This document shows positions 1 to 39,413 of a stretch of DNA of 64,000 nt, one piece after another (the stretch's first letter is position 1; each line of letters begins with the position of its first letter). The notes beneath the pieces were generated by a model, which was given only the letters and a program-made list of their open reading frames with translations, did not search any database and was not told the DNA's origin. The stretch covers positions 2,790,001 through 2,854,000 of the forward strand of contig JAAXNY010000001.1 of the NCBI GenBank assembly GCA_013420905.1. Direction: 5' to 3'. The stretch is from Collybia mongolica (lineage: Eukaryota; Basidiomycota; Agaricomycetes; Agaricales; Clitocybaceae). The position numbers and the translations under genes were made by a program.

Positions 1-292
1 CGACGCGGACTCTCTTGCCGCGGAGGTCATTCAGGCCGCTAACCGCGCGCTTGAAATGCGCAACTCCTTGTTGGCGCACATAGTTGGCACCATCGGTAAG
101 TTGTACGAGGAGGAAGGCCTGGAGGGCCTTCAAAACCTCTTGCTGACTACGCCAGCCACGGAGAGTGCTCTCCTCTTCTACACAGATTTCCAGAACCTCC
201 CTTGGCCGCCCTTGGAGGAAGAAGCAGAGGTTGATGACGGTTCTTCGTCGTCAAGTTCCTCTTCGTCCGTGCCTGACAGCGAGGAGGAGTAG
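1..292 (+). CDS. Antisense gene A of gypsy copy 1, last exon (5' truncated by window edge)
   Basis: This is the C-terminal part of an unrecognised protein, ending at TAG 290-292 with an acidic, serine-rich tail. It is about 84% identical by eye to the last exon of the complete copy at 11743-15306 on the minus strand. Window base 1 corresponds to about base 12034 of that copy. It lies on the strand opposite to gag-pol of its host element and is followed by gene B on the same strand. The differences I see (Ala/Thr, Arg/His, Glu/Lys) are largely those expected from C-to-T or G-to-A changes. Function is unknown; see the complete copy for the zinc-cluster-like motif. Confidence 0.7.
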   Translation, partial: DADSLAAEVIQAANRALEMRNSLLAHIVGTIGKLYEEEGLEGLQNLLLTTPATESALLFYTDFQNLPWPPLEEEAEVDDGSSSSSSSSSVPDSEEE

Positions 293-993
293 CCGCGCCG
301 CGCCCCCCCCCCTATGTTTTATATATATATCTGTGTTTCCCTGGGCCCTAGTGCCCTTTTTTTTTTTTTTTACTTACATATTCCCCCGCCTTTCGTTGGG
401 CTTCAATTTTTTTTTTAATTGAAGTCCAACACATGTCTTATATACAGTCCCCTGGACTTTAAACAATACAATTGGTTTACCCATTGTTCTATTGTCTTCA
501 TAAGAAAGCTTCCGCCCTTGCACCAGCTACTTAAGTTATAAATAGTACAGTTTAATTCTGGTGCAATTCTCTCGATCATTAAGACCGTGGCGCGATCACT
601 GACTTTTTATAGACAATCTATTTCAATCCTTGTAACCTTGGTAGGTTTTTCCAAATCGATTTTGCTTATACCCCTCTCCCCCTCAACACTGACAACAACT
701 GTCCCAGTTGTCATGCGGACACTGCCGTGCTCCACATGAATTTTTACGGAGCTCCTTTTTCAATTGGGCCCAGCATTTCAATTAGGCACGCGTCTCGGAC
801 CTGTTCAGTTGAAATGTATAGATTTTTCTGGGGATAGAACGCGCGCAACGAATGAGAGACTGGGTAGCGCTTCTCTAGTCGTAGAGGTATAAAAAGGGCA
901 CTGGCTGTGCTTTTTGTCCCAAGACATCGCCCGACTCTATTATACTCTCTTTTCAACGTTCTGGTTCGAAGAATCAATTTCCTCTGCATCATT
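293..993 (+). promoter_or_regulatory. Intergenic region A-B with gene B promoter
   Basis: About 700 bases separate the stop of gene A from the start of gene B. A TATA box (TATAAAAAG) lies at about 888-896, roughly 100 bases upstream of the gene B ATG at 994. The whole spacer is repeated in inverted orientation at about 11050-11740 in gypsy copy 2, including the TATA box at about 11145-11157. This agrees with a conserved regulatory segment carried inside the element. The first part, just after gene A, is T-rich and probably serves as its 3' end. Confidence 0.6.
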
Positions 994-2376
994 ATGACTA
1001 GCCCCCCCAACTATCAAGACATCGAGAACTTCAAGATGGTCCAAGCTCAGTGGCACACCTTTCAAGCTCGTTTATCGATGGACACCCTTGTTGAACAAAG
1101 GGTCAGTGTCCGGAAGTTAGGCGAAACCGCGGTACACTTTTTACCAATTACACTTTTTAAAACGCTGTTTTTGTAACCAACTTTTACAATTTACAGCTAC
1201 TCCTGACTGAGTCCAAATTGGTTTTGACGGAGCGGTCCTGGCAGAATGTTATCTTTGGCGTCCGTAAGGCCTTCCAGGGACTACAACATGTATACCCCGA
1301 GTTACTTCAAGAGCCTGTTTACCGTAACATTGTGACTCTGACTGCCGCTATTCACCGTCACCGTGAAAAGCTCCGCACTGAGCACCTGTCTCAAACCGCG
1401 GTGCGTGCTTTTTACCTCATCTTGTACTGTACTGTTCTTTAAACCATGGTTTTCTGGTACTAGGTCCCTGCTACTGGTGGTGAAGCGGATGGTACCACTA
1501 TTCCAGGCGAGGTCATTGCTGGCGGTGAATATGACGGTGACATTGAAATGTCTGGTACTGACTCGGTATGTTTCTTTTTAGCTACCGCGCTGTCAGTGCG
1601 CGACATACTCAATGGCGTCTCTTCTTTACTCAAGAATATGGTCATTGATTCCGGCGCTACGGCTAGTGCTGCTGTCTCTGGATCAGTGACTAGTCGTCTC
1701 CTTAGTGAAGGACCAATCACCCGTAGCCGCAAGGAGAAGGAGAACATTAAGGTTCCCTGTGTCAAAAGGACTAAGGCTGAAAAGGCTGCCATCAAGGTAC
1801 CCATTCTTGTTTTTGCTCTGTCTATTACTTTGTTTCTTATTCCTACAGGACGGTAAGCGTTCCGAGCTCAATCGCGGCAGCACTCTTCGTCCCAAAAAGC
1901 GTACGAGGCAGGACACCCCGGATGAAGATCCAAAGGCATCTGCTGAGGGTACGTTTTCTAATAATAGATGGTTCTAAATTTATACCGACTGTGCATCAGA
2001 TACTCGTGTCTTTATTGACTTCCGTCCCTCCAAGGAGCACGATGTAGTCTTAGCGCGGGCGCGCTTGATTGCAGACGCGGGCGATCCCATGTCGCACACC
2101 AAGCAAGCCCTCGGTAGGATGCTCTTAAACTACCGCGCTGAGTTGGAGGAGATCAGTCATACAGTGTCCTTCTTATTGAAGCATCGTGATGCCACTATGG
2201 ACGAGGTTACTCGCCTCAACGGTCTAATGAACGAGGCCGCTCTGGAGGGGGGCTCTGATGAGGCTGCCACTGCGAGCGCTACGGAAGTCCATGACCAGGA
2301 TGACAATGATAAGGAGGAGGTAGCTCCGGCTGACGTGCCCTTGCCCGAGGTTGAAGACGACTTCATATCTGCTTGA
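994..2376 (+). CDS. Antisense gene B of the gypsy element, five exons, unknown function
   Basis: My splice model is join(994..1131, 1197..1400, 1464..1796, 1849..1948, 2000..2376), 1152 nt, encoding 383 residues. All four introns are GT-AG and 51-65 nt long, and every junction keeps frame. The N-terminal part is helical and glutamine-rich. The middle is Ser/Thr/Gly-rich, followed by a basic, nuclear-localisation-like stretch (RPKKRTR). The C-terminus is strongly acidic. I recognise no domain. The gene is oriented against pol and ends 146 bases from the end of pol, tail to tail. The first exon is repeated at 11048-10912 in copy 2, where copy 1 interrupted it. A possible extra donor at 1566 was not used because reading through stays open. 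Homology could not be searched; the protein may act in regulation or replication of the element, but that is inference. Confidence 0.65.
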
Positions 2377-2522
2377 GGACAGTCCAATTAACTTCCTCTT
2401 GAGTTATGGTGTCCCTCCCCACGCTCCTTTGTATTACTGTCTTTACTCGGCTTAACACTGTCCTTACTACTTAGCTTAGTTGCTTATACTGTCTTTACTG
2501 CTTCTGTTTCCATACTGATTTA

Positions 2523-5500
2523 TCACCTATGCAACTTCCGGTGTGACATAGTAGTTTGTGGTAGCGCCGGCGCTATCCCCTCCTCAGTGTTCTCACTAGA
2601 GCTTGACTCTGAATCGGACTGATCCAATTGGACTCTGTCAAAAGTATAGTCACGCTCCTTGTAAACTTGCCTATTAGCGGGATCTTTTGATTCCACTAAA
2701 GCATTTAGTGTTTCGCTAGAGATGTCTATTAGATCTTGCAGATTATCCAGCAGTTCAATTGTACTCCTAGCAAAATAGGGAATAACCCTAAACGCCCCCA
2801 CTTTATGTTGCCACACCGATCCATCCATTTTGCAAACAATATAGGCTCCCCCGCGGTTTCGTCTCAGGACTATCATTGGTCCCAGGTACCGTGGCTTCAG
2901 CCTTTTATCGAGCGAACTTTTGACCTCGGTATTTCTAACTAGTACTAAACTTCCTGGTTTGAAATCATAGTCTCTGATGGTCGCGCTGTGATCCTTCTCA
3001 TACTGTAATAGTCTCCTTTGTTTTTCTATATTGATACGTTTCCTCATATCGGCCACATGCTGGACGTGCTTAGCTAGAGCCTGCGCTCTAAACCCAATGA
3101 GTTCCTCTGTAGTCAATATTTTTCCTGGTAACTTTACTAACCAAGTGGCTTCAATAATATCTAACGGTAAGGTTGGGTGCGCGCCCGTAATCATAAAATA
3201 GGGGGAGCAACCCGTCCCTTTCCGTATAGTAATTCTGTCAGCCCACATTACATGGTGGAAGAAGTAGTACCACTTCTTTACATCACCACCTGTAGCTTTG
3301 AAGACAGCTTGACGCACATCCCAATGTGCGCGCTCGGCGATCCCATTTCCTTTGGAATTGTATGGTGATATACTTATTCCTGTAATACCATACTTGGATT
3401 CCAGCCACGCTTTGGCTGCGACAAAGGCAGGACCATTATCCGTTACAATTTCCGTTAGGGAACCCCATCTACAAATTACTTCTTCGAACAGCCACCTTCC
3501 CAAGGTCTTGCCATCCTCAGATTTGAGGGGCGCGCCTTCCATCCACGAAGACAGCGCACATCTTCCTTGGACAATGTATTTATAGCCATTAGACGATGGG
3601 CTCATATACATGGTGTCTGCATGCAATACTTGGAATATAGACGGCGTGTGGGTTATGACAGGAGGGATTCTCAACAAAGTTAAGAGCCTTGTCTGACAGA
3701 TGTGACATGACTTCACATACCATGATACATCGCGTTCCATTTCTGGCCACCAAAATCTTTTATCTATTAAGGATTTTGTTGCATAGAAACCCCTATGTCC
3801 AACAGAATCATGAGACGCCTTCATCATATATGTTCGGTGATTTTTATCAACAACAAGCTGGTGCGCGCTATTGATATTTTTCCTATACATCCTGCCTTCT
3901 GGATCCAAAAAGAAATTAGACGCCTGCCTTGCAAACTTTAGGTAGGCGCGATCCGTCATTCCTTTTGGTCTCTTTTGTGGTCTTTTTAACCATTCTTTTA
4001 TTAAAGGTAGGTTTTTATCCTGTTCCTGCGCCGTAGGTGTTCGTTTAGACTCGTCATATACTTCCCTTACATTAGGGTCATATTTAAACTTTTCATCGGG
4101 TATGACAGTAGTATTTACAAGTTGCTTTAGATAAGCTTCTCTTTGAAAACCGAACCGTCCTAAACCTAAGTGCTGTTTTACTTCTCCAATAAATGCTGCT
4201 TCACCAGCCCAGGCATTGTTTACTTCAACTTCAAAATCAGAAATTTCCTTCGCAAGTTGGAATAAATATCCGCCGCGCGTGTCGATCTCCTCTTTAAAAT
4301 CTGACAGCTCCAAAGGGTCATCTAACCCTTCCGTTGGGTTGATAAACTTTAAAGGACCTGAGGGTTCGTCGTAACCATTGTCTGGGTCCAGGTAGACAGG
4401 ATCCCCTAGCCGCGCGTCTCGTCTTGACAGACCATCTGGGCCAAAGCCTTTACCAGCTTTATGAACCAGAGTAAAGTGGAACATAAGTATCCTATCAATC
4501 CACCTATTTACCGTTGCATTAGGTCCTAGACTTGGGTTTGATAACATCCCCTTAATGTACTTTGCATCCGTTTCCACTACCAAATTTCGTACTCCAATAA
4601 ACCAATAATAACATGCCATTAGAACTCTCATCAATCCGAATAGCTCTCGTTTGGGTTGTGAGAAGCGCGCTTCGCGCTCATTCAGAGTTATCGAGTCAAA
4701 TCTAGCATAGTGCTTTCTTCCAGGTATATCAGGGTCTTCCTGATAGATATAGTAGCCTACGGCTTTCCATGACGTATCTACTGACAATACCACTGACGTA
4801 TTCCAGGTGTAATTAATTGGACGGAGCGCGGGGCTATTTTTAAGTGCGTCTAACAATAGCTGCTGCGCTTCTTCTTGCTCAGGCCCCCATATCCAAGGTT
4901 CGCTACTTCTAGTTAACTTTTGAATTGGTTGGCCTATACGGGCGAAGTCTTTAATGAAATTCCTGCATACACCAATAGTTCCCATGTAAGCGCGTACTTC
5001 ACTGACATCTTTGCATGGTCCCCATCTTTCAACTACACCGATTCTATCTGTAGTAGGTTTTTGTCCTTCATAGGTACATCTATGTCCTACCACTAGAATT
5101 TCACTTGCACATAACATAGACTTATATCCTGAAAACGTTCCTCCAGAATACTTCATTCTCTGTACGACGCGATTTACATTTTGCATATGTTCCCAGAAGA
5201 AGTGCCTAACACCTGGAGCACCAGGTAGCTCTTCTTCTGTTCCGTCCGGCAGTTTGTAGCGCGTTGCTGGACTGCGCACGGGTACATCATCAATGTAGGG
5301 TATTGTGACATGTGGTACCTCATCCTGTAGGATGTATGTGACATCATCATGAAATATTGGAACTGAATTCGTCCATCCCATAGGAAGTGTTACTAGTCTC
5401 AGCGCGCCAAACGGTGTTTGGAACGTGGTTAGATCACGCGAGGTTTCTGCTAAAGGCCTCTCATCGTATCCTACATATAGATCCATCATTCCGCCACAAG

Positions 5501-6566
5501 CACGCCCTGCGAAGTGTTCTGCTAGTTCTTCGGTAGCGGGTGGTAAGCCCGAGTGCGCTATTGTGACTGCATTCAGCGGTTCTAGACTATGTACAATTCT
5601 AAGCTTCTTTCCTGGGCCTTTCTTTAATACGGTAAACCATCTAGACCTATATGATGAATTGGATCTCTCATAGACTCCTGCATCAATTTTAGTTTTGATG
5701 ATTTTACAAACATCTTCATAGATCCCTGGTGGGATTCTAATGTTCCTTTCTGTCCACGGCGTATGTGGGACTACTGGTATCTCGACGGGAGGAAAATATT
5801 CCTTCTTAAAGCTACCGTGCTCACTATCATTCCAAGCAAAACCATCATTATGTTTGCACATAAAGTCGTGGATTATATCCATCTCTTTAGGTTTTAAGAA
5901 GCTCTCTTCTTCGTGTACCCTTTGGAATTCCGCGCGCCTTTCCTCAGTATACCTTCCAGTTGGTTTAAACGGAGGTGGGTTAGGCGTTAGAACTGGTAGG
6001 GCCGCTAAAGGGTCACCCTTTATATCTCTGATAATTCTAAATTTATCAGGCAGGTCCGCCAGTGTTGGTTTTGTTTTCAAATGTACTGGTTTATACTTCT
6101 TTCCTACTAGCTGATCCATGGGCTCAATATTACACTTTTCACTTGTTGCAGTTCCAAGACCGCGCTCGTTGGTGCCAATTTGCCACTGCTTTAATTTACT
6201 TAAAGCTTTATCGATCATGGGCTGTTCTTGAGCGTATGTCATAGGTCTAGTGGGTGTACTTGCTGGGTCGCTGCTGTTCTGCTCGTAGTTTATTACTGGT
6301 CCATCGCGCTCATCTACGGAAGCCAAGTACGTGGCTAGTAATTCGCGTTCAGGTACTGTACTATTCATGTTCACATCACTTCTAGACAAAAAGACATCTC
6401 TAAGTTCTTTGTGACCAAAATTCCGTTTATCAGTAGGGTGTCTATAACCCGTTATAATAAAGTTTCCGTTCTCATCTTCAGCAATTTCTACGGCTAGATC
6501 TCCTTGATCACTTTGGATTAATTCATCGAAGGCCGAAAATCCTGCTCTGGTTGTCTTTTCAACAGC
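2523..6566 (-). CDS. Ty3/gypsy Pol: reverse transcriptase, RNase H, integrase
   Basis: The frame is open from just after a stop at 6567-6569 to the stop at 2523. There is no good ATG near its start, which fits expression by a -1 shift from protease; the two frames overlap at 6518-6566. Counting from a TTG codon at 6389, the reverse transcriptase has the first Asp in a [11 protein letters not shown] block and the YIDD box near residue 363. RNase H follows (VDTSWKAVG, then an ETDAKY block) near residues 540-660. Integrase has an HHCC finger (HDSVGH ... CHIC) near 857-900, then Asp in HADTM (about 921), Asp in TDNGPAF and Glu in IAERAH (about 1016). All catalytic residues seen are intact and no stop interrupts the frame, so it is probably active. 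Order RT-RH-IN identifies Ty3/gypsy rather than copia. Confidence 0.93.
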
Positions 6567-7723
6567 TTAGGCGGTGATCCCTTTGCATGGGTAGGGATAG
6601 TACACCTTCGTCCCGTGTTAGGGTCTGTGATAGTGACTACTTGTCCCCTGTCCTGAGCATTTTTGATCTGACTTTCCGTGAGTGTATCAAACGGTCTCCC
6701 GAGCAATACTTTGTATGCGGGTGAATTTATGATATGTACTTGGAGGTAGATGGCCATGTCATTAAACAAGAAAGGAACATTGCGCGCTAATCCCGCTGTT
6801 TTCTCAACTTGTTTATTAGCACTCTGCATGTGTATGACAACGTCCGGATCCCATGAAATATCTAAGTCTAAAGCCGTTTGTTTAGCCATTGATACTATTT
6901 GGGATCCCCCATCTAATAAAGATTCCTCCGTTCCTACCCCATTTATTACTGGATATACTGCGCGCAAAGAGGCCGATTCTTTTGCTACATACAACTGTTT
7001 GGGCTCTTCCCCAGCTGGTAAAGATTCTAAATACTGTAGGACTGGGTCTCCGCATATTATAGATCCCTTAGGTATTCCGCTGCGGTCATACTCCGAGATG
7101 AAGAAAGACTGGAATGGGATTGACTCTACTGGTAGCGCGTCATGCCGTAAGTAGTTATCATCAAGTTCCCAGTCCCCTCCAAAGGGTAAGACGTCTTCCT
7201 CATCTATTCCGTTTATTTGCAAGTTAGCGTCCCTTTGGGTGAGGGACTTACGTCTGGCAGTTACAATATTCTTTATCCCATCTCTAATGGTTTTTGACGA
7301 GCCCATTAACTCTCCCGTGGTCAATGTGATAGGGTTGTCTAACACTTTAGCAATTATATCACCACCTTTTAATTTTACTTCTATCGGGGACTTAGTTTCA
7401 TAAGTCGGACCGCGCTTAGTGTTAAAATTAGGTAGCGGATCAACTGGTTCAGGGTTGCGTTCCGTTCTCCGGGGTATGTAGGGTACCACGGGCACATCGA
7501 TGTAGGGTAATTCTTTTCGTACTGGAGACTTTACTGATGGTTCAACAAATTTTACTTTCTTTTTCCTAGGAGACGGCGCTACCAACTCCTCTTCGCTACT
7601 ATCCCGACTACTCTCCGAATCATTACTTTCTTGACGACTATTTCTGTTTTTATTTCGGTCCTCTGGCTGTCTCTTGGAACGCGACCTAGTCGTAGGTCTA
7701 GCGTGTTCCTTAGCCTCCTTCAT
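6518..7723 (-). CDS. Gypsy aspartic protease region (separate frame)
   Basis: The frame is open from a TAA at about 7749 and has its first ATG at 7723; the stop is at 6518-6520. The N-terminal third is charged and basic. Near the middle a retropepsin-like active-site block [11 protein letters not shown] appears, with Asp-Gly-Gly in place of the common Asp-Ser/Thr-Gly. The usual hydrophobic C-terminal motif follows (VLLGRPF). It lies one -1 step from gag and one further -1 step from pol, so all three proteins could be made from one RNA by two successive shifts, as in some retroviruses. The protease acts on the Gag and Gag-Pol precursors within the particle. The Gly substitution next to the catalytic Asp is recorded as odd; I believe related fungal elements share it, but I could not check. 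Confidence 0.75.
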
Positions 7724-7728
7724 CGGAC

Positions 7729-9240
7729 CTAATTGAAACCCGACTCTTTAACCTTGTTTTGGTTATTGAGTTCTGCTACCTGCCCTAATAAAGTACTCAT
7801 TTGTGCTTGTAAGGCTACTATGTCAGGATTCGGCGCGCTCTTTGCCGTAGGATTATAGTTATTATTTATATATTCCTGTTTCTGCATCTGAGGCGGTACT
7901 GGCAACGCAGTTTGTGCGCTCTGTTGTCCTAACATTTGTTGCGCTTGAAATTGTGCCATTTGTGCCATTATGGCTTTCAAGGTTCCAATGTCGTTACTAT
8001 TGTCTACTGCATTATGTGACTGCATAACGGACAATACTCCTGGAGCGGGTCCTTCCGTGACATCTCCGTAATAAAGGGCCGCTACCTTCTTTGAATGGAA
8101 GTGTTCCACTTTATCTTTCAATGATACCGTTTCTGGTTCTCTTGGAATATATGATCCGTCTGGTAAGCATACTCCTCCATTTGCGTTGGTTTTTATTTTC
8201 CCTTCCTCAAAATGTTTCTGTTTCTCGGGACAGGCCATTATGAAGTGTCCGGGTGTAAAACAGTAGTGACATTTATACGCATTTGGTCTTTGCGGTTGTC
8301 CTTCTTTAGGCTTTCCGTACTGATTCTGATACTGATGCTGCTGGGGTGCGCTATTCGTGGCATGGTTCTGAACAGTTGCTTGTTGAAGCGCTTTCATTAC
8401 ATCCTCGAATCCACTCCTCATATTCTTCTCATTTACTTGGAGACGGTCTAACAAATTAACTATTTGTTGTTTTATTTCATCCATCTCTACTTTGATTTTG
8501 GGTGCTGCTGTTGCTGTTACGGGCGTTATAAACGATCTATTTGTGTCTGGAATATTCATGTTGGCTACACCTTCAGAAATGCTGATTGCAGTTGCTATAA
8601 CTTCCTCCAGATTGTACTGATCCCCTTTTCGTCGCGCGAGCGCGGCGGCTTCGGCAATAGTATTAGGATCTGCTCGGTTGTTTGTAGCAACGGCTTGTCC
8701 TGCCTGTGTAGCATTAGACTGATTATTCCCTAGCAGGGTTAGCCTTCCTTGTACTTGGGATCTGAAGACTTCGTCTAGACATCCCAAGAACTTGGTAACT
8801 AATTCTTGGTTAGAGATAATAGGTGGCCTAACTCCCAAGAGTTTAATAGATTCTGCTTTGAATTCACGCTTCAGCTTTTTCAGCGCGGCCTCATCGGTTA
8901 CTCCAATACGTGGGTTGGCGCGACACACTGCTTCTAACTTGGCTACTGATCCTTCTACTTGATCGAGTGCTTCTGGATAACTAGAGATCAACTCTGTCTT
9001 GAAATCCGTCCAAGTGCCTGTCTTATAGTGGTCTAATGCCCTCCACTCATTCTCTGATTGTAGGTCTGCGTATTTTCCTAACATTAACTTCTTTTCTTCA
9101 TCATTTGTAATGTTACACTCCTTCCATAGGACCTCCATTCGCTCCAGAAACCGGATTAAACCCGTGGGCTCTTTTCCTTTGAATACTGGTGCATCACGGA
9201 CGCCTGGTTGGGGCATATATTTACGAGGGGGTTCAGTCAT
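7729..9240 (-). CDS. Gypsy Gag with zinc knuckle
   Basis: From the in-frame ATG at 9240 the protein has 503 residues. The capsid-like part contains the retrotransposon-gag helices (LIRFLERMEVLWKECN onward). One CCHC knuckle follows (CHYCFTPGHFIMAC, i.e. CX2CX4HX4C), and then a Gln-rich C-terminus. Gag forms the particle shell and binds the genomic RNA through the knuckle. The reading frame is open well upstream of 9240, to about 9590, but without an ATG. The first ATG in the leader, near 9554, opens an 11-codon ORF in another frame. The start may therefore be 9240, or a near-cognate codon upstream. Confidence 0.88.
   Translation of the reverse strand: MTEPPRKYMPQPGVRDAPVFKGKEPTGLIRFLERMEVLWKECNITNDEEKKLMLGKYADLQSENEWRALDHYKTGTWTDFKTELISSYPEALDQVEGSVAKLEAVCRANPRIGVTDEAALKKLKREFKAESIKLLGVRPPIISNQELVTKFLGCLDEVFRSQVQGRLTLLGNNQSNATQAGQAVATNNRADPNTIAEAAALARRKGDQYNLEEVIATAISISEGVANMNIPDTNRSFITPVTATAAPKIKVEMDEIKQQIVNLLDRLQVNEKNMRSGFEDVMKALQQATVQNHATNSAPQQHQYQNQYGKPKEGQPQRPNAYKCHYCFTPGHFIMACPEKQKHFEEGKIKTNANGGVCLPDGSYIPREPETVSLKDKVEHFHSKKVAALYYGDVTEGPAPGVLSVMQSHNAVDNSNDIGTLKAIMAQMAQFQAQQMLGQQSAQTALPVPPQMQKQEYINNNYNPTAKSAPNPDIVALQAQMSTLLGQVAELNNQNKVKESGFN
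7735..7741 (-). promoter_or_regulatory. Candidate -1 ribosomal frameshift site GGGTTTC between gag and protease
   Basis: On the minus strand the heptamer is read in the gag frame as G GGT TTC, a perfect X XXY YYZ slippery sequence. It is followed by AAT and the gag stop TAG (7731-7729). After a -1 slip the ribosome reads GGG TTT CAA TTA GGT CCG ATG, which is exactly the protease frame. That frame is closed only nine bases upstream of the heptamer by TAA. A downstream pseudoknot could not be assessed. Confidence 0.7.
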
Positions 9241-9675
9241 GATTACTGAACGGTTCTGAGTAGCTAACGAGTTCGGGTTTGCTACTGGGTTTACTACGGA
9301 CGATCTTCCGCGCGCTACTGGTCTACTAGTAGTCGATATGTTTCCTAAGGGCTCTGGAGTTCTAAATACTTGCCTTGGTCCTGAAGATCCAAAGGCTGGT
9401 TGTGAAGATCCTCGTGTGCGCGCTCGCCTAGGAGGTGGTAACAACTCTGTTACTCCAGCGTTTTGCGAATTTTTAGTCTGCCGCGTTTTTGTAGCTACTT
9501 GTCTTGCAAGTGGCTGCTTAGTTAGTCTGTTTGACGAGCTGGCTTGTGGGCATGGCTCTTGAGACAGATTGACTAAACTTTCTCCGCTCTACTTCAATTT
9601 GTAGACGACGTTACTCGTCTTGGTATAATATTTTTCAAAGAAAGATGCTCTCTTTAGACTATTCAAAACTCTGAA

Positions 9676-9693
9676 CCCTCGCGGTGGGCTCCA
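9676..9693 (-). other. Primer-binding site of gypsy copy 1
   Basis: Two bases after the 5' LTR ends (…TTTCA at 9696) the minus strand continues TGGAGCCCACCGCGAGGG. The TGG start, complementary to a tRNA CCA end, and the two-base spacing are typical for a PBS. I could not assign the primer tRNA. Confidence 0.5.
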
Positions 9694-9695
9694 GA

Positions 9696-10911
9696 TGAAA
9701 GGGGGCTCCTGGGCTATAAGTGCGCTGATGCTATGAAATGTAATCCCTTACACACACACACCAAACTTAACAATCAACACACAAACAGTAGGAATCGCCT
9801 GTTTTGAGTTCGGGTTCAAGTGCTTAGAAGCACTAAGCTTTGAAGAGTACTAGCCAAAGCCCTTTCCAATGATCTCTCAACGGGTTCGACTTAGACAAAA
9901 GCTTCAACACAGGTTCAAAAACCTGCTAGGTATATTTATAATATCTCTCGATCCAATAGACTGAGTACCAAGTGTACGTTCAATTATTAGTGATCCCAAG
10001 CGGATCTATAAGTCCAAGTGACTTATCAAACAATACAGTGCCAAGTGCACTAAGGCCAAGTGCCTAGTAATTCCAATGGACAATACGGTACTAAGTTCCA
10101 AGTGAACTAAGTTTCTTTAATTCTGTGGTTCTCCAATCAATTCCAATCAAGACACGTTGAAGCAATCTGATCCTTAATTCGGGCACGCAATAGTGTTTTA
10201 ACAAATGTGATTTGTATACTCTATAGTCGCGCGAAGTGGGGGCAAGATTCCTTGCCTTAGCGCTACTTATCTACAGTCTATTTATAGTGTACAAACTAAA
10301 TATCATACGGAATTGTAAATTTTACACGGAACCACGCTCCCGCGTGCCAAGGATCTGTATTCAATGCTGATGCGTCCTCTACAACTTGGCGCGCGCGCCA
10401 TGCGTGCCAATTATGCCGTTTACTGGTTACTTATCAAATATTGAAAGAGCTGGCTAAACTCTTATCAAGTCGCGACCGCGCGCTCCGTTATTTAAAACAG
10501 TGCGGCACTGTCATTTACTCCTCCTGATTGTCCCAGTCGCTATTCACGGGGTCCCGTCGCTTCCGGTAGTTAACACCAAGTACCCCTGACTAGGATCGGG
10601 TTGTGCAAGTCCCGAATTTACAATTACTTCTCCTATTAATGATGATCCCCGGACTAATGATATCATACTACAACAGTTACTTATGAACTAAGACACCGAG
10701 GTTGTAACCGGGCATGGTGAATAGGACTAATAATAGACCATACTCATAGTCCTCTGTACTGATAGTGTATTATCCATTAGACTAGTTCACTCTGATTAGC
10801 CGTCTTGGAGCTCGACTCTAATCCTTTATTACCGTTTACTTGGTTATTAGAAATGATACTAATAGCCTTACTTGTCGACTTTACAAGTGCAAACAATTTC
10901 GGGCCCTATCA
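9696..10911 (-). repeat. 5' LTR of gypsy copy 1
   Basis: 1216 bp with TG...CA ends: on the minus strand it starts TGATAGGGCCCG and ends GAGCCCCCTTTCA. The same LTR occurs at 15760-16950 and 38188-39413 and, truncated, at 30421-31323. This copy retains most CpGs and several GCGCGC runs, so it is the least decayed of the four. Confidence 0.9.
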
Positions 10912-11048
10912 GCGGTTTCACCTAACTTCCAGACACTGACCCTTTGTTCAACAAGGATGTCCATTGATAAACGAGCTTGAAAGGTGTTCCACTGACCTTG
11001 GACCATCTTGAAGTTCTCAATGTCTTGATAGTTGGGGAGACTAGTCAT
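10912..11048 (-). pseudogene. Gene B of copy 2, first exon only, interrupted by copy 1
   Basis: The 45 visible codons (start ATG at 11048) match exon 1 of gene B at 994-1131 with a few substitutions. The exon is cut one base before its splice donor, where the 5' LTR of copy 1 begins. The remaining exons must lie outside the window to the left. The upstream TATA box at about 11145-11157 and the leader are conserved. Confidence 0.8.
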
Positions 11049-11742
11049 AATAATGCAGAGGAAATTGGTTTTTTGAAACAGAATGTTGTAAAGAGAGTAT
11101 ATTAGAGTCTGGCAATGACTTTGGAAAAATAGCGCAGCCAATGCCCTTTTTATACCTCTACAACTAGGAAAGTGCTACCCAGCCTCTCATTTGTTGCGCG
11201 CATTCTACCCCAGAAAAATCTATACATTTCAATTGAACAGGTCCGAGACGCATGCCTAATTGAAATGCTGAGCCCAATTGAAAAAAGGAGCTCCGTAAAA
11301 ATTCATGTGGAGCACGGCAGTGTCCACATGACAACTGGGACAGTTGTATTCAGTGTTGAAGGGGAGACGGGTATAAGCAAAAGTAATTTGGAAAAACCTA
11401 CCAAGTTTACAAGGATTGAAATAGATTGTCTATAAAAAGTCAGTGATTGCGCCATGATCTTAACGATCGAGAGAATTGCACCAGAATTAAATTGTACTAT
11501 TTATAACTTAAGTAGCTGGTGCAAGGCCGGAAGCTTTCTTATGAAGACAATAGAACAATGGTTAAACCAATTGTATTGTTTATAGTCCGGGGGACTGTAT
11601 GTAAAGACATGTGTTGGACTTCAATTAATAAAATTGAAGCCCAACAAAAGGCAGGGGAACTTAGGTAGCAGTGATAAAAGGGCCAGGGGCCTGGGAAAAC
11701 ACACGTAGATATAAAAAAAAATAGATGGGGGGCGCGGCGTGG

Positions 11743-14700
11743 CTACTCCTCCTTGCTATCAGGCACGGACGAAGAGGAGGTTGGCGATGAAGAACCGTCA
11801 TCAACCTCTGATTTGTCCTCCAAGGGCAGCCAAGGGAGGTTCTGAAACTCTGCGTAGAAGAGGAGAGCGCTCTCCGTGGCTGGCATAGTCAGCAAGAGGT
11901 TTTGAAGGCCCTCCAGGCCTTCCTCCTTGTATAACCTACCAATGGTGCTGACTATGCGCGCCAACAAGGAGTCGCGCATTTCAAGCGCGCGGTTAGCAGC
12001 CTGAATAACCTCTGTGGCAAGAGTGTCCGCGTCATCCAGCTGAGCATACACCTCAGCAACCGCTAGTAGAGTACAGTGGCTCAAAAAACTGCCCCAATGT
12101 TTGTACATTTTTGAAAGATCAATATGGTATGAAGTGCTGACATAAGCAGGGGACCTGGGGTAATTATGTAAGATACTATGACATCGTGGCTTTCCAATGG
12201 ACCCTGGATCATGTGATTTGGATCAATATCCATTAAGCTATAAGCCAAACAAAATGGTTACTTATTGGGGCAGTTTTTTGACCCTTATCTTATTTTCCAT
12301 TATTCTGGCATTTATGATCCAATGCAAGAACATTATGGACTGTGGGAAGAATAAACAATGTCATGTGACTTTATTTGTATCAATTTGACATGTTGGAATT
12401 GGTTCAATCATCTTCTTGACCTCTTACCACCATCATGAAAGCCATTTCTACTGCTCAGCACAATACTGTTGTTTCTCTCCTCAATGAGGGCTATTCTCAG
12501 CGTCAAATCAAGGAGAAAACTGGTCTAGGGAAGGGTACCATCAGTAGGATCAGCAAAGATGTGGATGGAAACAAAGAAAACAACCTTGGTGGCCGCCCCT
12601 CCAAGCTGTCTGTTCGTGACAAACAGTCAATTATTCGTCAAATCAAGTCAGGGAAGCTTGATAATGCAGTTCAGGCTACCCAATTCATCAATGGCATCAT
12701 CCCCAATCCTGTCACACCCCAGACAGTCAGAAATGCACTCAAGGAAAATCAATTTTATGCTGCTACAAAGAGGAAAGCTCCTCTTCTCAAACGAGCCCAT
12801 CGCATCCGGCGTCTCCAGTTTGCAAAATATCATGAAAGCTGGACTGTGGAGGACTGGAAAAGGGTTCTATGGACAGATGAGACCAAAATCAATAGGATTG
12901 GGTCAGATGGAAAGGTTTATGTCTGGAAACAAAGGGGAGAACCACCATCTGATAGAACAACATCACCTACTGTCAAACATGGAGGAGGAGGAAACCTCAT
13001 GGTATGGGGTTGTATGGGGTGGAATGGAGTGGGAAAGCTCATAGAGGTGCAGGGGAACATGGACAAGGTTCAATACTGTGAAATTTTGGAGAGTGGAGTT
13101 CAGGAAAGTTTTGAGAAGTTGGAAATGGTGGATGGCGAGCGCTACTTTCAGCAAGATAACGACCCCAAACACACATCTGGACTGGCCACACAGTGGTTTG
13201 AAGACAACAACATTCAAGTCCTTGGCTGGCCTGCCCAATCCCCTGACATGAATCCAATAGAACACCTTTGGGAACATCTCAAGCGCCGTCTTAAAGAATA
13301 TCCGACACCACCCAAAGGAGTACATGAGTTGTGGGATAGATTGGCTGAAGAGTGGGGTGAAATTCCACCAGAGGTATGCCAAAACCTGATAGAAAGTATG
13401 CCCAGGTGGATACAAGCAGTTATAAAGGCAAAAGGTGGTCATACAAAGTATTAGATAGAAAATTAATAGAGGGTCAAAAAACTGCCCCAATGAGTAATCA
13501 TTTTGTTTGGCCTATAGCTTAATGGGTTTTGATCCAAATCACATGATCCAGGGTCCATTGGAAAGCCACGATGTCATAGTATCTTACATAATTACCCCAG
13601 GTCCCCTGCTTATGTCAGCACTTCATACCATATTGATCTTTCAAAAATGTACAAACATTGGGGCAGTTTTTTGAGCCACTGTAAGTAAAATCTTAAGTAA
13701 ACAAAAAGACAGAAAGAAAATGGCTTACTGGAAATGCCAAGCATAGGCCCCAGATCCTCCCGGAGCCTAGCGCGCTTCTGGGGAGTGAGACTGAAGCTGC
13801 ACTTCCCCTTCTTGGCAGTAGCACATTCAACGCACGGTTTACCCCAACCGTTGAAGGAGCACTTGATGTCGCCGCGGGTGGTGCACATCGTGCAAGGATA
13901 GCCAACCTAGTAAGAATGATCAGTAACAAGAAATAAAGTAGTAATAAACATATGGTAGAGCGCCGAGGCGCAAGGTCAGCCAGCAGGGATGTAATAGGAG
14001 ACTGTAGCAGTGTAGGCTCCCGGTTGGGAACCAGTGTGTGCTTACAACGTGTCACCTGAACCCCATCCCTAGAACGAGTGGTCTTATGTGACCAATGAGG
14101 AGAAGGGGCCATGGGAGGCAACAACTCCACAAATCCCTCTTGAGCCAACTGGTGTGCAATCTCTTGATCAAAGAGCCGAAGCTCAGGGACCTCAACCTTA
14201 ACCGGCGGCTGCCCAGAGGACTAAAAAGATAAAAATAAGTAAAAGTAAATGAGTTTTAAAATAGAAAGGAGACATACGGGACCTGCCTCCGTGGGACACA
14301 GCACGGAATCACTGTCAGCCCCCTGGGCACGCGACATGTCAGACTAGAATTTTGAAATCAAGTCAGGAATAATGTAAAGCTCGTGAAGTAAAGGATTGTA
14401 TACCTGGGGAACTGCGCAGCCTTTGCCCTTGGACCCTGCATTACACTTCCGCTTAAGGGGCTATTGAAATAAGTCAACAACAGAAGAAAAGTAATAAAAG
14501 TAGCGATTGATGAACCGCAGGTACCAAAACCAGGGAGCGTGCAGGCAAGGGTGTGGCGGACCAACTGTCCCAGTACTGATGGTAATGGCGTGGCATGCCA
14601 ACCATGCGAGGGGGGACAAGGAAAGTATCTTGAAAGATACTGTCACCATTGTTGTGCTTGTAGTGCAACCCCACCTGGTCCAAAACTTGCTCCACCATGG

Positions 14701-15306
14701 GAGCCTGACCCTAAAGTAAAAAGTAATCAGTATAACAAGGACAGAGTAAAAGGAGTAAACATAAGCCATTTACCAAAAGGATGGAATTGTTTCCAAGGTC
14801 GACCGATATGACTGTACGCCAGGAAGACCAGGAGGCTTTGTGTGCTTCAGCCAGAAGGCGCATCACCTGAAGGTGAAGCGCACGCAGGAGGAGAATGGCC
14901 AGGTACAGCAGCAAAAAGCGTGCGCCACGGACCACGCCAGTGATGGCGTCCTGAGACCAGTAAATAAGTAATTTAGTAAAAGGTTTTAACAAGTAAAAGA
15001 TGGGTGTACAATGAGCAAGGAGCAGTGATTGACAAAGTCAATTAAATCGTCAAGGTCAAGGGGTCCCTGATGGTCCATATGGAATGCAAGCTCCTCGGCC
15101 ATAATGATCCACCCTTGCTCCATGGCAACAAAGACATCGCCCTCGGCATCTTCAAGGAGATCAGAAAACGAAGGGATGGGCTGGTCCACATAGACCATAG
15201 CGGGGGAACAGCCCTCAGTCAGTAAAATCGTGTTGGAGAGCGAAAGGGACAGTGCGGAAGGCGAGTGCAGAGCACAAGCCATGGCAGAAGTGGAAGTAGA
15301 AGACAT
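11743..15306 (-). CDS. Antisense gene A of gypsy copy 2, eight exons, Zn-cluster-like protein
   Basis: My splice model on the minus strand is exons 15306-15010, 14950-14774, 14710-14525, 14460-14404, 14343-14278, 14220-14056, 13906-13729 and 12062-11743. This gives 1446 nt and 481 residues, in frame throughout. Introns are GT-AG; the sixth is about 150 nt and the seventh holds a Tc1 element. Exon 7 carries six cysteines spaced CX2CX7CX8CX2CX7C (from CTMC to GKCSF), similar to fungal Zn2Cys6 clusters, so DNA binding is possible. The C-terminus is acidic and Ser-rich. A TATA-like stretch (TTTTAAAAAG) at 15411-15421 lies about 105 bases upstream of the start. The protein family is unknown to me. 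The Tc1 sits 8 nt upstream of the last splice acceptor and probably disturbs splicing, although every exon is open. Confidence 0.68.
12074..13681 (+). mobile_element. Tc1/mariner-family DNA transposon, apparently complete
   Basis: 1608 bp flanked by TA dinucleotides (12072-12073 and 13682-13683). Inverted repeats of about 212 bp lie at 12074-12285 and 13470-13681, differing at only a few bases. They start CAGTGGCTCAAAAAACTGCC. The terminal motif occurs again in reverse at the inner edge of each arm (near 12266-12285 and 13470-13490), so each arm is itself a long-range palindrome. It lies in the last intron of gene A of gypsy copy 2. An uninterrupted transposase fills the middle, which suggests a recent insertion. 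Confidence 0.95.
12435..13454 (+). CDS. Tc1-type DD34E transposase
   Basis: 339 residues, a usual length for Tc1, with no internal stop or intron. The N-terminal third has paired helix-turn-helix features (YSQRQIKEKTGLGKGTISRI, then GGRPSKL and a second HTH near residues 60-110). The catalytic triad is Asp in WTDETK, Asp in FQQDNDPKHTS and Glu in NPIEHLWEHL. Exactly 34 residues separate the second Asp from the Glu, the Tc1 signature. It should bind the element's inverted repeats in the nucleus and catalyse cut-and-paste insertion at TA. The gene starts 150 bases inside the left repeat and ends 15 bases before the right one. Confidence 0.95.
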   Translation: MKAISTAQHNTVVSLLNEGYSQRQIKEKTGLGKGTISRISKDVDGNKENNLGGRPSKLSVRDKQSIIRQIKSGKLDNAVQATQFINGIIPNPVTPQTVRNALKENQFYAATKRKAPLLKRAHRIRRLQFAKYHESWTVEDWKRVLWTDETKINRIGSDGKVYVWKQRGEPPSDRTTSPTVKHGGGGNLMVWGCMGWNGVGKLIEVQGNMDKVQYCEILESGVQESFEKLEMVDGERYFQQDNDPKHTSGLATQWFEDNNIQVLGWPAQSPDMNPIEHLWEHLKRRLKEYPTPPKGVHELWDRLAEEWGEIPPEVCQNLIESMPRWIQAVIKAKGGHTKY

Positions 15307-15410
15307 ATTTGTTTAAGAAAGGGTTGGAGTGGTTGAGCGATGTGAATAGCAAAGAAATTTAGAAATGGGCTGTAAAGTCCAAATTGTCTAAAACTTAGCA
15401 AAAGTGAGAG

Positions 15411-15421
15411 CTTTTTAAAAC
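15411..15421 (-). promoter_or_regulatory. TATA-like box of gene A
   Basis: On the minus strand GTTTTAAAAAG lies about 105 bases upstream of the gene A ATG at 15306, the same distance as the TATA box of gene B. It lies between gene A and the 3' LTR, so the antisense gene appears to have its own promoter next to the LTR. Confidence 0.45.
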
Positions 15422-15751
15422 ACACAACCCTGCATTGCAAAGCTCTAAAGGACAAGCAGGAGCACTGATCTCTTGCTGAAATGTCAGAAACATAATGAGA
15501 GAAATGCTCAGATGATTGAAATATCTGTAAAGCGATGTCCGAATGTCAAGTACTCTCTCAGGAGACATGTATAACTGTCACGATCCTGATGGAAAGTAGA
15601 CCTCTGGGCTCGATCCCGACATCACATGCCTACCTGTCTAAAAGCAGGAACCATTGTGACCTTGTACTGAATGATTAGACACATGCAGACCCAAAGTATT
15701 GGACTAACATGCCAGCAGAGAGAGACTGAGGACAGTCTACATTTGTGGTGT

Positions 15752-15759
15752 GGGGGAGA
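15752..15759 (+). other. Polypurine tract of gypsy copy 2
   Basis: GGGGGAGA directly precedes the TG of the 3' LTR at 15760. This is the expected primer for plus-strand DNA synthesis and proves the LTR orientation. Confidence 0.7.
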
Positions 15760-16950
15760 TGATAGGGCCCGAAATTGTTTGCACTTATAAAGTCAACAAG
15801 TAAGGCTATTAGTATCATTTCTAATAACCAAGTAAACGGTAATAAAGGATTAGAGTCGAGCTCCAAGATGGCTAATCAGAGTGAACTAGTCTAATGGATA
15901 ATACACTATCGGTACAGAGGACTATGAGTATGGTCTATTATTAGTCCTATTCACCATGCCCGGTTACAACCTCGGTATCTTAATTCATAAGTAACCATTG
16001 TAGTATGATATCATTAGTCCAGGGATCATCATTAATAGGAGAAGTAATTGTAAATTTGGGACTTGCACAACCTGATCCTAGTCAGGGGCACTTGGTGTTA
16101 ACTACTGGAAGAGACAGGACACCATGAATAACAACCGGGACAATCAGGAGAAGTAAATGACAGTGCTGCGCTGTTTTAAATAACAAAGTGCGCAGTCAGG
16201 ACTTGATAAGAGTTTAGCCAGCTCTTTCAATATTTGATAAGTAACCAGTAACAACATAATTGGCATGTATGGCACGCATGCCAAGTTGTAGAGGACGTGT
16301 CAGCATTAAATACAGATCCTTGGCACGGGGGAGCGCAGTTCTGTATAAAATTTACAATTCCATATGATATTTAGTTTGTACACTATAAATAGACTGTAGA
16401 TGAGTAGCGCAAAGGTAAGGAATCTTGCCCCCACTTTGTGCTACTATAGAGTATACAAATCACATTTGTTAAAACACTATTGCGTGCCCGAATTAAGGCT
16501 CAGATTGCTTCAAAGTCATTTTGATTGGAATTGTTTGAAGAGATCACAGAATTGAAGAGTCTTAGTTCACTTGGAACTTAGTACCGCATTGTCCGTTGGA
16601 ATTACTAGGCACTTGGCCTTAGTGCACTTGGACTTATAGATCTGCTTGGGATCATTAATAATTGAACATACACTTGGTACTCAGTCTATTTGGATTGAGA
16701 GATATTATAAATATACCTAGCAAGCTTTAAACTTGTGTTGAAGCTTTGTCTGAATCAAACCCGTTGTGAGATCATTGGAAAGGGCCTTGACTAGTATTAT
16801 TCAAAGCTTAGTGCTTCTAAGCACTTGAACTTGAACTCAAAACAGGCAATTCCTACTGTTTGTGTGTTGATTGTTAGGTTTGGTGTGTGTATGTGTAAGA
16901 GATTACATTTCATAGCATCAGCACACTTATAGCCCAGGAGCCCCCTTTCA
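15760..16950 (+). repeat. 3' LTR of gypsy copy 2
   Basis: 1191 bp, from TGATAGGGCCCG to GAGCCCCCTTTCA, in plus orientation. Compared with the LTR of copy 1 many CpGs have become TpG or CpA, so copy 2 is older or longer methylated. Confidence 0.9.
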
Positions 16951-30420: not shown

Positions 30421-31323
30421 GGTTCTCTGTACTCATAGATGTGTTAATCATTAGACTGGTTCACTCTGATTAGCTGTCTTGGAGCTGAACTCTAATCTTC
30501 CCAATACCATTTACTTAGTCATTGGAAATGATACTACTGTACTATTTCATTCAATTCGTCGGAGTTGTGACCTGTAACCACTCTGACATATTATTTTTTT
30601 CAACGAACACTCTGGTGACCTGTGACCCACCTAAAATTTTGTCGACCATCAATTGATCAGCTCAGTTACCACCTCGGCTCCAGAATCTTCTAACTCAGCA
30701 CCATAACAAATTTATAATAATGATGTTCATAAAATTGTAGCCTTGTCAGTGACACTGCATTGGAATAGACTCTATGTCCTGCTCCACACTCTCAATGCCA
30801 GTCATGTCTTTACCTACCATACCACAGGAATTTCAAGCAGCTCTTCTACCCCATGAGAAGCTCTCCATTTCAGAGTTTCTAAAATTCCACATCCCTCCTG
30901 TCACCTCCTCAACAAGTTTTGTTGATGCAGGAGATTATCTGACCATGGAAGATCATAAAGGCTTTGACTTCCAAGTCGAAGAAATATGCTCACTGTGACT
31001 GACAAATTGAATGAAATAGTACAGTACTTACTGCTTTGCATCTTTTTGGCACAGAGACAAATATGACTCAGTGTCCAGTCAGGCATGTATGCAACATGGC
31101 ATATAAGCATCTAGGGAGTGCCAAAACCAGTTTTACAATGTAAAAAAGCTGAATTTGTGAACCCTTCCAGAGGTTCGTCGGTCCTTGTTGTGACCTGGGA
31201 CAGCTGTGACATTCTGTTGCCTCCCATTGGCCTGTGACCTGTGACTGATGAATTGAATGAAATAGTACAGTAATAGCTTTAACTTGTTGGTTTTACAAGT
31301 GCAAATAATTTTGGGCTGTATCA
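30421..31323 (-). repeat. Truncated gypsy LTR split by a MITE
   Basis: 30421-30536 and 31271-31323 together match the beginning of the 1.2 kb gypsy LTR in minus orientation, ending at its TG terminus (TGTATCA on the plus strand). The rest of the LTR is absent. The two parts are joined across a TA-flanked insertion (30537-31270). Confidence 0.75.
30537..31270. mobile_element. MITE-like DNA element inserted in the LTR fragment
   Basis: 734 bp beginning CTGTACTATTTCATTCAATT and ending with its reverse complement, flanked by TA on both sides. Removing the element and one TA restores the LTR sequence. GTGACCTGTGAC-type words adjoin both ends. A third copy of the terminal repeat lies inside, ending at 31024 and also followed by TA. 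The interior may therefore be a smaller element (30537-31024) extended on the right. No transposase; the TA target suggests mobilisation by a Tc1/mariner enzyme. Confidence 0.75.
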
Positions 31324-38187: not shown

Positions 38188-39413
38188 TGATAGGGCCTGA
38201 AATTGTTTGCACTTGTAAAGTCAACAAGTAAGGCTATTAGTATCATTTCTAATAACCAAGTAAATGGTAATAGAGGATTAGAGTCAAGCTCCAAGATGGC
38301 TAATCAGAGTGAACTAGTCTAATGGATAATACACTATAGTACAGAGGACTATGAGTATGGACTATTATTAGTCCTATTCACCATGCCTGGTTACAACCTC
38401 GGTATCTTAATTCATAAGTAACCATTGTAGTATGATATCATTAGTCCAGGGATCATCATTAATAGGAGAAGTGATTGAAATTTGGGACTTGCACAACCTG
38501 AGCCTAATCAGGGGCACTTGGTGTTAACTACTGGAAGAAACGGGACACTGTAAATAACAACTGGAACAATCAGGAGAAGTAAAAGACAGTGCCATGCTGT
38601 TTTAAATAACCAAGTGCGCTGTTGAGCATTGATAAGAGTTTAGCCAGCTCTTTCAATATTAGCCAAGTAATAAGTAACAACATAATTGGCATGTATGGCA
38701 TGCGCACCAAGTCATAGAGGATGAGTCAGCACTAAATACAAGACCCTTGGTGCAGGAGGGCATTGTTCCATATAAAATTACAATTCTTTATAATATTTAG
38801 TTTGTACACTATAAATAGACCATAGATAAGTAGCGCAAAGGCAAGGAATCTTGCCCCCACTTTGCACTACTATAGGATATACAAATCATATTTGTTGAAA
38901 CACTATTGCATGTACAAATTAAGGATCAGATTGCTTCAATTGTCTTGATTAGAATTGTCTTGAAGCATATGGCTAAAGAGATCACAGAATTGAAGAGTTC
39001 AGTTCATTTGGAACTTAGTACTTGCATTGTCCATTAAAATTACTAGGCACTTGGCCTTAGTGCACTTGGCACTGTTGTTTTAATAAGTCATTTAGACTTA
39101 TAGATCTGCTTGGGATTGTTAATAATTGAATGTACACTTGGTACTCAGTCTATTGGATCAAAAGATATTATAAAAATATACCTAAAAGTCTTAACACTTG
39201 TGTTAGGGCTTTGTCTGAATCAAACCCATCAAGAGATCAGTGAAAAAGGCCTTGACTAGTACTGTTAAAACTTAGTGCTTTCAAGCACTTGAACCTAAAC
39301 TCAAACAGGCAATTCCTACTGTTTGTGTGTTGATTATTAGATTTGGCATGAGTGTGTGTAAGAGATTACATTATATAGCATCAGCACACTTATAGCCCAG
39401 GAGCCCCCTTTCA
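38188..39413 (+). repeat. Solo LTR of the gypsy family
   Basis: 1226 bp with the same ends as 15760-16950, flanked by CCAT on both sides (38184-38187 and 39414-39417). This indicates a 4-bp target duplication and recombination to a solo LTR. No polypurine tract or internal sequence adjoins. It has lost more CpGs than the two LTRs at the left, so it is old. Confidence 0.85.

Follow-up and report, generated by a model that had tools for sequence, protein, structure and literature searches.

How can genes with many introns persist inside a retrotransposon, when sense-oriented cargo would be expected to lose its introns through reverse transcription? The question is raised by a 64,000-nucleotide stretch of the Collybia mongolica genome (G000:C1:2790001-2854000; hereafter the window), in which a sequence-only reading had recognized a gypsy element with two intron-bearing genes, A and B, antisense to gag-pol. 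This central claim was confirmed: the element has the order RT-RNase H-integrase, and both genes are located between pol and the 3' LTR, run against gag-pol and occur in most copies of the family in the genome searched (46 Mb, 26 contigs).

Two Ty3/gypsy elements of one family are nested in opposite orientation within positions 1-16950 of the window (Table 1). Element 1 possesses two direct LTRs with TG...CA ends, which differ at 11 positions over 1216 sites, and a short target duplication of 4 bp (GCGG) found on both sides (10912-10915 at the right), which is the arrangement by which Metaviridae are recognized. The sequence TGGAGCCCACCGCGAGG, a candidate tRNA primer site, begins 2 nt past the LTR of element 1. 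Element 1 is inserted in the B gene of element 2, where exon 1 meets intron 1. The sequence-only reading had placed one gypsy element at 1..15306 and had described two inverted A-B copies, each antisense to its own LTRs. The element and the polarity of both copies were seen as described, but element 1 begins outside the window at -3742, and the A-B pair appears inverted because element 1 is nested in element 2, so that the arrangement goes back to a single nested insertion.

Table 1. Features of the two nested elements (window positions; negative positions lie to the left of the window)
Feature	Position	Strand	Remark
Element 1, Ty3/gypsy, ~14.65 kb	1..10911, extending left to -3742 (G000:C1:2786258)	-	
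Element 1, 5' LTR, 1216 bp	9696..10911	-	paired with 3' LTR
Element 1, 3' LTR	-3742..-2527	-	paired with 5' LTR
Element 1, gag frame, 619 codons stop to stop	7729..9588	-	zinc knuckle just below Pfam cut-off
Element 1, protease-region frame, 409 codons stop to stop	6518..7747	-	-1 relative to gag
Element 1, pol frame, 1347 codons stop to stop, RT-RNase H-integrase	2523..6566	-	-1 relative to protease frame
Element 1, gene A, 8 exons, 520 codons	-1656..292	+	splice sites read by eye
Element 1, gene A, most of last exon	1..292	+	
TATA-like box TATAAAAAGGG	888..898	+	106 bp upstream of B start
Element 1, gene B, 5 exons, 383 codons	994-1131, 1197-1400, 1464-1796, 1849-1948, 2000-2376	+	antisense to pol
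Element 2, left part, 5' end damaged	-12093..-3742	+	
Element 2, right part, split by element 1	10912..16950	+	
Element 2, gene B exon 1, interrupted at its intron edge by element 1	10912..11048	-	
Element 2, gene A, antisense to own LTRs	11743..15306	-	intron 6 donor AT
Tc1/mariner-like transposon including TA duplication	12072..13683	+	in intron 7 of element 2 gene A
Element 2, 3' LTR, TGATAGGGCCCG...GAGCCCCCTTTCA	15760..16950	+	

Other insertions are present in both elements and around them. The Tc1/mariner-like insert in element 2 contains a 344-codon transposase frame with DDE_3 and 229-bp inverted repeats that are 95% alike; a 200-nt piece of its repeat was also found at -11490..-11291. 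In element 1, gene A and the 3' LTR are separated by a MITE-like insert (L033:2698-3114; about 417 bp) with the ends TGTAAGGG...CCCTTACA and a GACAT duplication. Further LTR copies of the family are located in the window at 38188-39413 (about full length) and 30422-30536 (a fragment), and the self-comparison of the window revealed no internal element parts beside them. Among 22 LTR loci without internal sequence, five displayed exact 4-bp target duplications (CCAC, CCGT, CTGC, CCAG, and CTGG at L002, L006, L017, L025, and L026); near-matching duplications such as CCAG/CCGG also occur. These sequences suggest that the element may target NCGN sites, which would later decay at CpG. The neighbouring frames of the window encode P450 and berberine-bridge domains, with a glyoxal-oxidase match just below the cut-off, and three diverged tandem copies (66-72% alike) are found at 51150-53050, 58433-60392, and 60958-62830, the last of them with a berberine-bridge domain. 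Together with the short GT-AG introns, the domains of these frames agree with a fungal origin, perhaps a basidiomycete that decays plant matter.

The gag, protease-region, and pol frames of element 1 are connected by two -1 steps and occupy three frames. The Pfam search of the protease-region frame gave no match; the frame contains LLDGGSQ, which we take to be a protease-like motif. In pol, a Ty3 RT/RNase H match at 285-715 is followed by an integrase H2C2 match at 906-960, which is the gypsy order, and by an rve match at 979-1070 that scores under its own cut-off. The pol frame was free of stops in 29 of the 35 scored copies. Among the scored candidates of the protein collection, 1540 relatives of pol were detected, including one match at 98%; relatives with 53-76% identity were present among the 120 best listed, and none was found in the viral contigs searched. 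Retroviruses with gag-pro-pol use slippery sites at their frame steps; candidate sites of this kind are G_GGT_TTC at 7741, shortly before gag terminates, and, where the protease-region and pol frames overlap (6518-6566), GGATTTT.

The intron map of A and B was derived from element 1 by reading the splice sites by eye and checking the phase. The introns are 47-69 nt long, and 10 out of 12 are in phase 0. Gene A has the eight exons described before, with 520 codons in element 1 instead of the 481 claimed. The five exons and 383 codons claimed for gene B stood; should 1566-1634, a 69-nt GT-AG stretch that keeps the frame, be a further intron, B would have six exons and 360 codons. No stop interrupts this stretch, and its length is constant among the 30 copies; taken as coding, it showed an omega of 1.5 with an interval of 0.33-5.7, compatible with either status. 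The TATA-like box upstream of B was present in 29 of the 30 copies, and the remaining copy displayed a 1-nt gap.

Both genes are open in most of the copies compared. The copies are the best-scoring ones (L034-L063 for B), which biases the intact-frame counts upward: the whole B frame was found in 29 out of 30, the exception (L039) having a stop at codon 20. Relative to element 1, the exons of B in these 30 copies showed one indel of -3 and one of -9 and no others; the remaining B indels are located in introns 1 and 2, and length differences of L036, L045, and L051, caused by where the loci were cut at their edges, were left out of the recount. All B introns of the 30 copies are of the GT-AG type save one with a GA donor at 1797. 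Under the exon map of element 1, five out of five whole A copies lacked an inner stop, and their indels are restricted to introns or to the region ahead of the start. In element 2, exon 7 of A shows a -6 indel. An AT donor replaces GT in two of the five whole copies (intron 6 of L067 and intron 5 of L069) and in intron 6 of element 2, and further AT donors at intron 6 were found in L038, L043, and L062. The last part of A was in frame at 25 of the 30 B loci, L060 included, although part of its flank was unmatched. In the other five, the 3' part of A runs off the contig (L044), is frameshifted (L046), lacks a stop (L047), is not element sequence (L053), or is partly deleted (L061).

The A-B pair was then located in the whole genome with single markers, which gave 105 matches for pol, 103 for B, and 105 for A (0 for the reversed-pattern controls); the linkage counts rest on 100 places listed for each of the three. 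Both markers accompanied pol at 76 of the 100 listed places, B alone at 10, A alone at two, and neither at 12. Among the matches listed, no other-strand B was found within 3 kb and no other-strand A within 4.5 kb of pol. The spacing between pol and B was 1755-1756 nt in 65 of 86 cases, and the orientation was uniform among the best-scoring whole-length matches (37 pol, 40 A, and 40 B). A missing marker does not always mean a missing gene, as part of A lies near the place C4:776238. At 30 LTR loci of the other subfamily, about 1500 nt of upstream element sequence were present in five, and all five included the start of A; the match of one further LTR locus of this subfamily (L005) spans 97 nt only.

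The expectation that complete elements always carry A and B was thus borne out at the 88 of 100 listed pol places with a marker of A and/or B, but not at the 12 with neither, some of which may have partial genes. One member without the pair that was read, an element on C10, is a deletion derivative: the deleted part begins at about codon 13 of A, reaches almost to the end of B, and sits at an 8-nt word common to A and B. The 16 differences between its LTRs (1218 sites) and its unmatched flanks suggest that this form arose by recombination between copies and did not transpose as such; since its flanks are unmatched, it does not demonstrate transposition without A and B. The converse possibility raised by the sequence-only reading, that A and B reside mainly outside the elements, was not borne out: 13 of the 100 listed A places and five of the 100 listed B places had no partner marker nearby. 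One lone A (C1:2801892) and one lone B (C1:2785857) among these represent element 2, split by element 1.

To estimate selection on the coding sequences as omega, the 30 B loci were divided into 15 non-overlapping pairs of nearest copies, and the two copies of a pair were compared directly, with neither a consensus nor a reconstructed ancestor. For the pol 3' end, 12 of the 15 pairs, and for A exons 6-8, 11 of the 15 were used; the pairs left out displayed very many differences, their flank not being element sequence. CpG transitions made up 168 of the 231 differences between paired B copies, an excess pointing to cytosine methylation of the element, probably after insertion. For changes outside CpG, omega was 0.27 for B (95% interval 0.17-0.44, 15 pairs) and 0.26 for the pol 3' end (12 pairs); A gave 0.25 over the whole gene (two pairs) and 0.41 over exons 6-8 (11 pairs). 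Outside CpG, the strength of purifying selection on A and B is similar to that on the pol 3' end. For CpG transitions, the values were 0.98 for B, 0.93 for A (0.47 in the A pair L067/L068), 0.77 for A exons 6-8, and 0.74 for the pol end; with all changes pooled, omega was 0.68 for B, 0.62 for A, and 0.56 for pol (12 pairs; 0.60 with 13 pairs). In the first half of A, the non-CpG omega was 0.11-0.19 between subfamilies (five comparisons with one common partner) and 0.41 within the older subfamily (two independent pairs); stop counts of partial A fragments in the subfamily comparison were out of frame and were left out.

A dN/dS near 1, the outcome that the sequence-only reading had set against its own proposal, was accordingly rejected for the non-CpG changes of B and A, with CpG changes nearer neutral. 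The natural reading of these values would be a decay at CpG after insertion, superimposed on A and B that have been kept like pol in the transposing lineage. The A-B pattern was confirmed to exceed chance: the frames are open, indels in B exons are confined to the -3 and the -9, and the non-CpG omega of about 0.25 compares with 1.7-3.3 in shifted frames of the same exons.

What the two proteins do was approached by homology searches and motifs. In Pfam, A and B gave chance-level matches only, with no transposase domain, no bZIP, and no TRP28 at E <= 1. The PDB search with A yielded nothing better than E 0.84, and a comparison of A with B detected no relatedness (E 0.90). In the protein collection, no relative of A was found, and the last exon of B had one relative at 99%, which is probably from the same species. 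These searches favour unspliced proteins, and the absence of relatives of A and B therefore means little. Fungal transcription factors of the Zn2Cys6 type show the spacing CX2CX6CX5-12CX2CX6-8C. The cysteines of gene A (C-x2-C-x6-C-x8-C-x2-C-x7-C) fit this pattern, and all six are kept in 23 of the 24 readable clusters (six of the 30 copies being unreadable); the Pfam zinc-cluster model did not match gene A at E <= 1, so that the designation "Zn2Cys6-like" holds for the spacing but not for the domain model. Basic stretches are also present in A, and B contains a basic stretch and an acidic tail. From the cysteines, the basic stretches, and the analogy with HBZ and gene23, we infer that A and B may be nuclear regulators of the element.

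The introns, which were said to persist in the cargo genes, are indeed retained in all A and B copies examined, and the spliced junctions A7/8, B5/6, and B3/4 had no match genome-wide with up to three mismatches. A sense genomic RNA carries the introns of an antisense gene as reverse complements, and these should escape splicing before reverse transcription. In the proposed mechanism, A and B would each be expressed as a separate nuclear transcript and spliced in the nucleus. The sense RNA that is packaged and reverse-transcribed would present the introns in reverse, and they would escape splicing because they are present only as reverse complements, to which the splicing machinery would be blind. 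Daughter copies would then inherit the introns of A and B whole, and the products of both genes would act in or on the nucleus. Their likeliest role may be the control of the element's own transcription or of nuclear steps, as for HBZ-type antisense proteins, a guess that we regard as somewhat more apt to fail than to hold.

The place of A and B, fixed in most copies, their conserved frames and mostly conserved splice sites, and a constraint like that on pol indicate that they are most likely accessory genes and not passive cargo. We therefore consider it likely that A and B are accessory genes of this Ty3/gypsy family in antisense orientation, predicted to be spliced, whose introns are sheltered by their strand. 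A more far-reaching interpretation, to which we give slightly less than an even chance, is that they form a long-term nuclear control module of two genes and 11 or 12 introns, hidden from the splicing of genomic RNA by antisense polarity. The introns might also serve as a strand filter, A or B protein being made from the nuclear antisense transcript only and never from genomic RNA, and antisense polarity might be a general route for intron-bearing genes into retroelements.

The same observations bear on several other explanations. The multi-intron structure is typical of host genes, and the C10 deletion derivative shows that an element copy can exist without the pair; an ancestral element might thus have captured A and B from its host in a single event, to carry them along as neutral passengers. 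This is improbable, given that the non-CpG omega of whole A and B (0.21-0.27) resembles that of pol and is low between subfamilies. The B frame kept in 29 of 30 copies speaks against neutrality as well, although against neutrality only and not against an origin by capture. If the genes benefited the fungus, with the element as their vehicle, selection would act on the host. Selection tests cannot tell whose benefit is involved, and lone A and B places do exist (13 and five of 100 listed, respectively), but about 100 copies with a pol-like constraint are the pattern of element genes, and among the lone places, at least one of A and one of B belong to the split element 2, which makes this explanation quite improbable.

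An RNA-level function of antisense transcripts from LTR elements is discussed in the part of the literature consulted (PMC7264820), and selection could accordingly act on the antisense RNA itself, such as one that silences or serves as a decoy, with incidental reading frames. This is very improbable, because the indels in B exons spare the frame, the other indels are intronic, and the synonymous excess is found in the coding frame alone, with shifted frames above an omega of 1 outside CpG. Least probable of all is that A and B stem from another mobile element that inserted a single time into the ancestral one. Nested transposons do occur in this region, such as the Tc1/mariner-like insert, but neither A nor B has a transposase domain; this argument is weak, the search for terminal repeats of an A-B unit having covered the window-wide repeat scan.

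With the reading of A and B as accessory genes of the element, about 100 copies with two genes, 11 or 12 introns, and pol-like selection allow the idea of an antisense shelter to be tested within a single genome. Should A and B prove to regulate the element, they would be the counterpart of retroviral antisense accessory genes, built from different proteins. The regions between pol and the LTR of other elements are worth re-reading for spliced antisense genes, which an annotation of uninterrupted ORFs would miss.

Zhao et al. are said to have described an antisense gene, brtn, in the Boty element in 2011. Boty of Botrytis cinerea resembles the family described here, as far as a comparison by description goes, in that a gypsy element of a fungus bears an additional gene opposite in direction to gag-pol; in the accessible accounts, one gene (brtn) is named for Boty versus two here (PMC7264820, PMC8365987). 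In plants, the interval from pol to the 3' LTR is described as harbouring an extra antisense ORF in the elements Grande, RIRE2, Retand, and PvRetro13 (PMC7264820, PMC11963269). The A-B pair corresponds to the definition of an aORF-3R, an extra coding gene antisense to gag-pol in this location. The plant ORFs share its place and orientation, occur in most copies, and are conserved like other element proteins, and a nuclear or DNA-binding role has been proposed for their products, as here (PMC7264820, PMC11963269). The family of C. mongolica differs in its non-plant host and in having two genes with seven and with four or five introns; the word "intron" does not appear in the main texts on the plant elements (PMC7264820, PMC11963269). 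The Retand-type antisense gene is defined by TRP28 (PF04195), in contrast to A and B, which lack TRP28 at E <= 1.

Bdelloid rotifer LTR elements have extra ORF3 genes as separate transcription units with spliced messages; these are of the types env, DEDDy, GDSL, CC, and TM, unlike A and B, and are not described as antisense in the part of the source consulted (PMC5408684). HBZ of HTLV-1, APH-2, and their relatives are reported to be encoded by spliced antisense transcripts and to be mostly nuclear proteins that modulate the virus (PMC10186651). Like A and B, they are retroelement genes on the antisense strand. The 3' LTR supplies the promoter, and HBZ contains a bZIP domain (PMC10186651), whereas a TATA-like box lies ahead of B and no Pfam bZIP was detected. 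The statement of the sequence-only reading that antisense ORFs in LTR elements are known is therefore correct for plant elements, Boty, and the HTLV antisense genes (PMC7264820, PMC10186651). A literature search that covered mainly non-subscription texts returned no multi-intron antisense gene, or pair of such genes, in an LTR element. An LTR element with an antisense accessory gene is hence already known, and what may be new in the present family is a pair of multi-intron genes under pol-like selection.
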